A DNA stretch of 43,004 nucleotides, taken from positions 1-43,004 of the forward strand of contig NZ_JACUTS010000009.1 in NCBI RefSeq assembly GCF_014859695.1. Reading direction: 5' to 3'. Both the position numbers and the translations under genes were made by a program. The notes beneath the pieces were generated by a model that saw only the letters and a list, made by a program, of their open reading frames with translations, was not told the DNA's origin and did not search any database. Within the stretch, counting starts at the first letter, position 1. Every line of letters begins with the position of its first letter. Positions 1 to 785 of this stretch are shown piece after piece. The DNA comes from Sulfurimonas sp. (lineage in GTDB: Bacteria > Campylobacterota > Campylobacteria > Campylobacterales > Sulfurimonadaceae).

Positions 1-82
1 ACGCTGTACCGCGCTTAACAGTGCCGTTTTTCTTAACTTTAAAACGCTTGACAGCGCCTTTAACCGATTTCATCTTTGGCAT
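1..82 (-). CDS. rpmI: 50S ribosomal protein L35, 5' part only
   Basis: The first 27 residues of ribosomal protein L35 are encoded on the minus strand; the rest lies outside the window. The translation begins MPKMKSVKGAVKRFKVKKNG, the typical basic L35 N-terminus. The ATG is at 80-82 and is preceded by an AAGGAG ribosome binding site about 6 bases upstream (near 90-96). L35 is a small protein of the large ribosomal subunit, normally encoded in infC-rpmI-rplT, so rplT is expected just beyond the left edge. A 268-bp inverted-repeat element starts only about 20 bases upstream of the start codon. Confidence 0.93.
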   Translation of the reverse strand, partial: MPKMKSVKGAVKRFKVKKNGTVKRGTA

Positions 83-103: not shown

Positions 104-371
104 AGGGCACCTCTAAAAATCCTATAAAATCTCAAAGCCTAAAAAAGGAGTGAGATTGTGCAAAACTTTTTTTGAGTCATAGCCGTAGCTATGGCGATAA
201 AAAATTTTGTGCAAGATTGCTCCTTTTTTAGGCTCCCAAAGGGCAATAGAGCAAACACGCTACTGCTTCGTTGAAATCACTTGAAGCTACTAGTAGCTCC
301 TGCGTAATTTCGCCTCACATTAGCATATTTGCTCTATTGTTGAGAACTTATAGGGTTTTTAGAGGTGCCCT
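104..371. repeat. 268-bp nested inverted-repeat (MITE-like) element
   Basis: Terminal inverted repeats of 24 bases lie at 104-127 and 348-371 and match at 23 of 24 positions. Inside are two further stem-loops. The first has perfect 15-bp arms at 136-150 and 220-234, with an inner palindrome CATAGCcgtaGCTATG. The second has perfect 12-bp arms at 244-255 and 328-339, with the 12-bp palindrome GCTACTAGTAGC at 286-297. The whole element could fold as a three-way junction. No transposase-like reading frame and no obvious target duplication were seen. It fills the gap between rpmI and the small gene at 421. Confidence 0.75.
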
Positions 372-648: not shown

Positions 649-666
649 TATTTTTTCAAAAATAAT

Positions 667-785
667 CGATAGATAATTTTATTCAAATTCGAGGCAAAAT
701 TTTGTTTAATTGAGGAGTTTACTTGTGGTAAATGACGAAATTCAACCAAATTTTAACGAAGAAGTTGGATAAAATTATCTATCGA
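667..785. repeat. 119-bp long imperfect palindrome next to ffs
   Basis: Perfect 17-bp arms lie at 667-683 (TCGATAGATAATTTTAT) and 769-785. The next roughly 30 bases on each side continue to pair imperfectly around CAAAATTTTG-like segments, giving one long hairpin. It starts exactly where the SRP RNA ends. The loop is too long and the arms too AT-rich for a standard intrinsic terminator, so a small mobile or palindromic repeat is the better description. A role in 3'-end formation of the SRP RNA is possible. Confidence 0.6.

Follow-up and report, generated by a model that had tools for sequence, protein, structure and literature searches.

MITEs mobilised by insertion sequences (ISs) are short, lack a transposase gene, bear terminal inverted repeats, are flanked by target duplications, sit in AT-rich intergenic sites and fold stably, as set out in the sections of PMC10969869 drawn on here. 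Correia elements and ERIC are MITEs that lie within transcripts, where RNase III can cleave them or they can affect RNase E sites (in part from the same sections of PMC10969869). The CIR repeats of Caulobacter and Brucella consist of two long inverted repeats, with two arms and a linker, in a structure that is conserved across species and carries a GANTC motif at a loop (PMC2229807, in extract). REPs, at 20-40 bp, are dispersed palindromic units partly tied to Y1 transposases (PMC3116915 and PMC3733652, in extract).

Here we describe an element upstream of rpmI in the window, by which we mean the whole 43,004-nt stretch of Sulfurimonas DNA that was analysed. It shares each of the MITE traits listed above, is likened to the CIR repeats by description alone, and is dispersed and palindromic as the REPs are. 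Its features, with those of its surroundings, are as follows (T1 denotes an end type and L080 one of its carriers, both treated below).

1-82, minus strand: rpmI (bL35), start codon at 82-80, truncated by the contig edge
101-104: left target-site duplication as read here, TAAA; TGAA at the empty sites, one change
105-370: whole element, 266 bp, from the empty sites in three genomes and the boundaries of other copies
105-135, plus strand: left terminal inverted repeat, tip GGGCACCTCTAAAAATC, matching that of the T1 IS5-family element L080 at 16/17 bases
131-344, minus strand: conserved core, CTCA(A/G)...TGAG, about 214 nt, alignable between copies
136-234, plus strand: hairpin B, which folds better on this strand
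235-243: mini-hairpin CCC-AAA-GGG, its three pairs kept in 98.6% of cells of the alignment
244-339, minus strand: hairpin A, with the AGGC/AACGNAG internal-loop motif, which folds better on this strand
340-370, minus strand: right terminal inverted repeat, tip on this strand GGGCACCTCTAAAAACCC
371-374: right target-site duplication as read here, TGAA
381-386, minus strand: TATAAT, a likely rpmI -10 box lying 10 nt beyond the element, found by eye and also in the element-free relatives L321-L323
791-888, minus strand: bacterial small SRP RNA (ffs), Rfam, 60.5 bits

Results

Insertion upstream of rpmI

The region upstream of rpmI is uninterrupted in three relatives (loci L321, L322 and L323, in genomes G032, G021 and G005). 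The empty site reads GTAAAT-TGAA-GCGCAATTATACCC in L321, and TGAA likewise in the other two, whereas the window copy has TAAA to the left and TGAA to the right of 105-370. These flanks are a 4-bp target duplication in which one base later changed. The earlier note had delimited a 268-bp unit at 104-371; the repeat is real, but the mobile unit is 105-370, with the target duplication at 101-104 and 371-374. The search for empty sites covered 60 relatives, 36 of which gave a match, resolving into 20 loci, one being the window itself and one having no rpmI match. No 268-bp insert separates rpmI from the neighbouring ORF in any of the 18 comparable relatives, many of them too diverged for the target to be read, and the largest gap there is about 121 nt (L329).

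The 27 readable residues of rpmI match rpmI_bact (TIGR00001) with 28.4 bits, under the cut-off of 51.2, as would be expected of a fragment. The element lies 22 nt from its start codon, in agreement with the roughly 20 bases given before. The proposed link to an infC-rpmI-rplT region is a different matter, as its infC part finds no support: beyond the element lies a divergent ORF of 75 aa (421-648), with no NCBIfam match at E 1. A consensus promoter scan of the region does not list the TATAAT at 381-386. With rpmI starting at 82 and a likely minus-strand -10 box at 386-381, most of the rpmI leader would consist of the element, which may affect rpmI. A plus-strand frame that begins within the element runs on into the 75-aa ORF (271-648; 125 aa with a TTG start), probably by chance.

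Architecture of the element

A repeat finder returned three nested or adjacent inverted repeats: 104-135/340-371 (32 nt, 91% complementary, the first 24 matching 23/24 by eye), 136-171/199-234 (36 nt, 81%, outer 15/15) and 244-265/318-339 (22 nt, 86%, outer 12/12). Each long hairpin has a central palindrome, CATAGCCGTAGCTATG in one and the imperfect GAAGCTACTAGTAGCTCC in the other. The terminal repeats, stems and palindromes that the earlier note had described are thus all present in the sequence. Its three-way junction holds for the two long stems and the terminal repeats, but the mini-hairpin CCC-AAA-GGG between the long stems (235-243) makes four helices at the junction, not three. The consensus has a closing stem, made of the terminal repeats plus CTCAG/CTGAG, that meets hairpin A, the mini-hairpin and hairpin B at a junction where hardly a base is left unpaired. 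As RNA, the plus strand of 80-400 folds with z = -11.1 (0/100 shuffles as good) and the minus strand of 105-370 with z = -13.8 (0/200); a single strand of the element folded as DNA gives z = -11.6.

The element has terminal inverted repeats and, by ORF scan, neither an ORF of at least 60 aa wholly inside 105-370 nor the IS5-family DDE transposase gene that would make it an IS5-family IS. It is a non-autonomous transposable element of the MITE type, and it looks like a satellite of IS5-family ISs rather than an IS. An intrinsic terminator, a GC-rich hairpin followed by a U run, was considered and rejected, the sole terminator-like site in 1-800 being at 11-24.

A separate 120-bp hairpin elsewhere in the window (666-785), just past the SRP RNA gene on its 3' side, carries the AGGC/AACGAAGAAG internal-loop motif of hairpin A. 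Of the 135 genomes of the genus, 27 have DNA matches to 649-792, as many as six in a single genome; these adjoin the same neighbouring ORF in G021, G005, G125 and G126.

Copies within the genome, genus and order

The element's own genome (G000; 2.37 Mb, 186 contigs) has six further places with copies or fragments. Element ends occur on five contigs (the edge of C7, C15, C104, C163 and C165), and full-length cores were recovered with the covariance model R1 at C104, C165, C15, C157, C163 and C126; the C165 copy is 99% identical to that of the window and terminates at the contig end. Across the genus, 83 of the 135 genomes have an R1 match to the core at E 1e-3; as 17 candidates were scored in each genome, copy numbers are lower bounds. 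The phylum search, with five candidates per genome, gave matches in 56 of 397 sampled genomes (E 1e-5), spread over 22 of 68 genera, all within the window's own order. An exact 21-base motif of hairpin A retrieved 104 stretches from a database of genome contigs; the 80 listed of these all bear Campylobacterota names, mostly Sulfurimonas, with Sulfuricurvum, Nitratifractor, Arcobacter and Helicobacteraceae also among them, names that point to Campylobacterales as the order. Plasmid and phage sequences gave no element match at E 1e-5.

Ends, target duplications and IS5-type carriers

The profile gave 446 hits. Those spanning the core numbered 136, with 75 of them distinct; 67 were kept once copies with less than 60 bp of flank or with repeated flanks had been dropped, and all but one of them (66/67) have recognisable ends on both sides. 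The one core is found with several end types: T1, GGGCACCTCTAAAAACC; T2, AGACTTCTT(G/T)CATAACC and variants, with which the T3 form AGACCTC was counted; and T4, TTGAACCCTCTGAACAA. Other ends, for which no carrier was matched, flank the cores of C126, L177, L181 and L185. Perfect 4-bp duplications border 17 of the 39 T1-ended copies (permutation mean 5.8), and perfect 3-bp duplications 13 of the 23 T2-ended copies (permutation mean 4.7), with p = 2e-4 in both cases, the floor of 5000 permutations; the length of the target duplication tracks end type for T1 (4 bp) and T2 (3 bp). In the register used, the four T4-ended copies showed no target duplication.

The same ends are found in other genomes of the genus on IS5-family elements of 1254-1300 bp (T1), 896-907 bp (T2) and 1213-1232 bp (T4). 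Perfect 4-bp repeats flank three of the five T1 insertion sequences inspected (L290, L294 and L297, not L293 or L079), and perfect 3-bp repeats flank both of the T2 ones inspected. The T1 transposase scores as IS5_4 (L079, L080), and the carriers of T4 and T2 were found with the same model, the former above and the latter below its cut-off; in the T2 carrier L303 the transposase is in two overlapping reading frames. One core is carried by at least three end types that match different IS5-type elements. The carriers are rare. Eight of the 135 genomes have the L080 transposase at E 1e-40, G000 not among them, and 29 have IS5_4 at 1e-10, 11 of them over the cut-off, with no match found in G000. 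IS5_4 shows no association with the core, occurring in 16 of the 83 core-bearing genomes and in 13 of the other 52 (p = 0.52).

A tree of 66 cores requires four changes of end type, and when T1 is set against all other ends the starred branches likewise demand four. The count is not firm, since two rows with discordant labels, L184 and L164, are on long branches; two T1 rows group with T2 cores. The core has likely changed end type more than once.

Two other sources of the hairpins or of their mobility were considered and rejected. Inheritance from IS5 elements finds no hairpins by eye in L079 and L080, and a scan with the A-type hairpin only gave none in 102,178 bases of IS5 loci. Mobilisation by Y1 (RAYT) transposases finds Y1 in 40 of 83 genomes with the core and 22 of 52 without (p = 0.60), and no A-type hairpin in 30 fetched Y1 loci. 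Y1 matches occur in 62 of the 135 genomes; those of G000 (C91:1992-2318 and C160:21975-22307) lie in open frames of 274 and 261 aa, and longer frames are found elsewhere.

Two further observations concern ends of these kinds. Genomes G031 and G046 have several T1-like ends no more than about 100 bases from contig starts, a placement that an abundant, unassembled repeat bearing such ends would produce; neither has a core match or a close T1 transposase. In the window itself, 1304-1446 is probably another MITE, with inverted ends CTGACCTTACGCACT / AGTGCGTAACATCAG over a 143-bp span, and its end sequence also flanks the core copy L177 outside the genus.

Conserved pairing of the core

RNAalifold predicted 69 pairs in 25 cores, 42 of them with double changes. 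The larger alignment, A2, has 73 cores, 13 from outside the genus, and was assembled from the 66 cores with ends less two outside 205-222 nt, giving 64, then minus L288 and L149 and plus 11 cores; of 19 extra loci it omits L165 (the same place as L147), L169, L174, L177, L181 and L185, and a deleted copy, L031, had been excluded before the alignment A1. A 57-pair structure is formed in 95.0% of its cells. Double changes occur at 47 of the 57 pairs, against 36.9 (sd 1.6) in shuffles, none of 500 being as high, and in 896 cells against 240.7 shuffled, counts that are not independent events because the 73 rows are related. The covariation score is 0.597 against 0.169 shuffled and at most 0.162 for slid structures, in which 28-34 pairs have double changes; for all of these statistics the structure was predicted from the same alignment. 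Besides the pairs, the non-complementary motifs AGGC/AACG and TTGCAC/GCACAA persist while the surrounding stems change, and the aligned core is 212-216 nt long in 66 of 75 distinct copies. We lean, with modest confidence, towards the view that selection keeps the pairing of the core.

The earlier note had suggested a non-autonomous mobile or structured element, and this is borne out by the copies, empty sites, target duplications, matching IS5 ends and conserved pairing. The repeat is not single-copy, since further copies occur in its own genome and in others of the genus; the site at rpmI is empty in three relatives; and both strands fold beyond shuffles with pairing that is conserved among related copies.

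Opposite strand preferences of the two hairpins

When each hairpin is folded by itself, the minus strand gives the more stable hairpin A in 67 of 73 copies (by subgroup 21/21, 31/35, 4/4 and 11/13), and the plus strand the more stable hairpin B in all 73. DNA energy parameters give the same polarity (A 70/73, B 71/73), so that polarity does not separate RNA from single-stranded DNA. Wobble counts on the minus strand, with pairs found from both strands, are 49 G-T against 14 A-C for A and 19 against 53 for B; with pairs from the minus strand alone B reverses (91 G-T against 61 A-C), and its wobble count, shifting with the choice of pairs, is less firm than its energies. The modelled energies fit a single-stranded form, as a symmetric cruciform would not be expected to give such polarity.

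In C126 of the element's own genome, and in L177 and L185, the second hairpin carries by eye an inverted A-type motif, which suggests that the element originated as an inverted pair of one hairpin type. REPINs, too, are inverted pairs. These three copies are absent from A2 and so lie outside the pairing counts.

Genomic context of the copies

Among 59 placed copies, 30 lie between tandem, 27 between divergent and two between convergent genes, a distribution that follows intergenic space; in tandem contexts the element has the same orientation in 11 cases and the opposite in 19. A crude ORF call, used both for the copies and for the baseline, whose loci were picked by a hairpin A motif, puts many copies near start codons. 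A preference for upstream regions was rejected, as 57 of the 59 copies face at least one gene start where intergenic space alone predicts about 54. The TATAAT just outside the window copy led us to consider insertion at transcription starts; in 129 flanks, TATAAT-like boxes that have at most one mismatch and end no more than 10 bp away total 48 inward and 31 outward, an enrichment too weak for a claim of promoter targeting. This context gives no sign of a transcript-linked role.

Discussion

Our best explanation as a whole, which we hold with modest confidence, is an IS5-mobilised element whose core, on at least three kinds of end, is under selection for pairing and provides a leading RNA hairpin. 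IS5-family DDE transposases would recognise the terminal repeats and move the element in trans, a proposal that is well supported by the matching ends and the target duplications; the window copy would have landed between the promoter and the ribosome-binding site of rpmI. The core, consisting of hairpin A, the CCC/GGG mini-hairpin, hairpin B and the CTCAG/CTGAG-type stem, would have become joined to at least three IS5-type ends. As an inverted pair, the element would present on each strand its better hairpin first from the 5' side, and read-through transcription from either flank would yield a well-formed leading RNA hairpin that a cellular factor or RNA polymerase might recognise, allowing insertion to be tolerated in either orientation. 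We favour action of the core as RNA in read-through transcripts because a well-formed first hairpin on each strand, as the folding models give, is what would be expected if such transcripts were selected. It is conceivable, if doubtful, that the core predates its present ends and is a transferable device, carried through the order by at least three transposition systems, or by more if the unmatched ends are counted. On this reading its opposite-strand hairpins would supply each insertion, whichever way round it lies, with one kind of leading RNA signal (antitermination or insulation, for example), making insertions between promoter and gene tolerable.

The main rival to the RNA reading is that the core works as single-stranded DNA, with A on one strand and B on the other bound by protein during replication or transposition, perhaps aiding strand separation or targeting, and with pairing kept for the sake of mobility. 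The polarity under DNA energies, the strong fold of the strand as DNA and a copy context without a link to transcription would all suit it; yet IS5 elements with the same ends manage without such hairpins, by eye in L079 and L080 and by the A-type scan, and neither genome co-occurrence nor the 30 loci tie the core to Y1, which leaves us thinking it unlikely. Still less likely is that this is an ordinary MITE, only the ends of which matter, with arms kept complementary by gene conversion or template switching between them. A typical MITE is AT-rich, lies between genes and forms a stem-loop (PMC10969869, in its relevant sections), but repair of the arms would tend to erase internal mismatches and provides no reason for opposite polarity, and the persistent motifs and nearly constant core length speak against it. 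We consider it very improbable that IS ends have spread a regulatory RNA that benefits the host, akin to a riboswitch-like leader. The window copy is placed where the rpmI leader would form, and many copies are near start codons as crudely called, but an Rfam search of the element found no family at gathering score, its six weak matches being microRNA and snoRNA models far below their cut-offs that we take as chance hairpins; the context, moreover, follows intergenic space, and none of the 18 comparable relatives has the insert at rpmI.

The core persists through changes of its ends, with its length and pairing held across many genera, and the matched IS5 elements that were read have no such hairpins. 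Were the core functional, a gene-less parasite could persist independently of any one transposase, and its many natural variants would serve for testing a structured insert in a 5' leader. The family is in any case a new repeat for annotating genomes of this group. No description of it was among the open literature matches listed, a scope lying outside subscription journals and ISfinder, and an earlier description or database entry may exist.

How, then, does the element sit beside the systems already described? REPs are partly tied to Y1 transposases in the extracts of PMC3116915 and PMC3733652, whereas here the ends are of IS5 type, target duplications are present and Y1 (RAYT) shows no association across the 135 genomes (p = 0.60). 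The sections of PMC10969869 that treat Correia elements and ERIC mention no multi-helix junction or exchange of ends, unlike what we describe. For the core itself, the HK022 put RNA, a nascent RNA structure that alters polymerase behaviour (PMC9378689, in extract), offers an analogy for the way in which it may act. What is ordinary in the element is its MITE-type insertion; what is unusual is the exchange of ends and the two-strand core, for compared with the IS-mobilised MITEs of PMC10969869, as far as its sections drawn on here go, one core is found on at least three sets of ends and in many genera, as a covarying four-helix structure with its hairpins on opposite strands.
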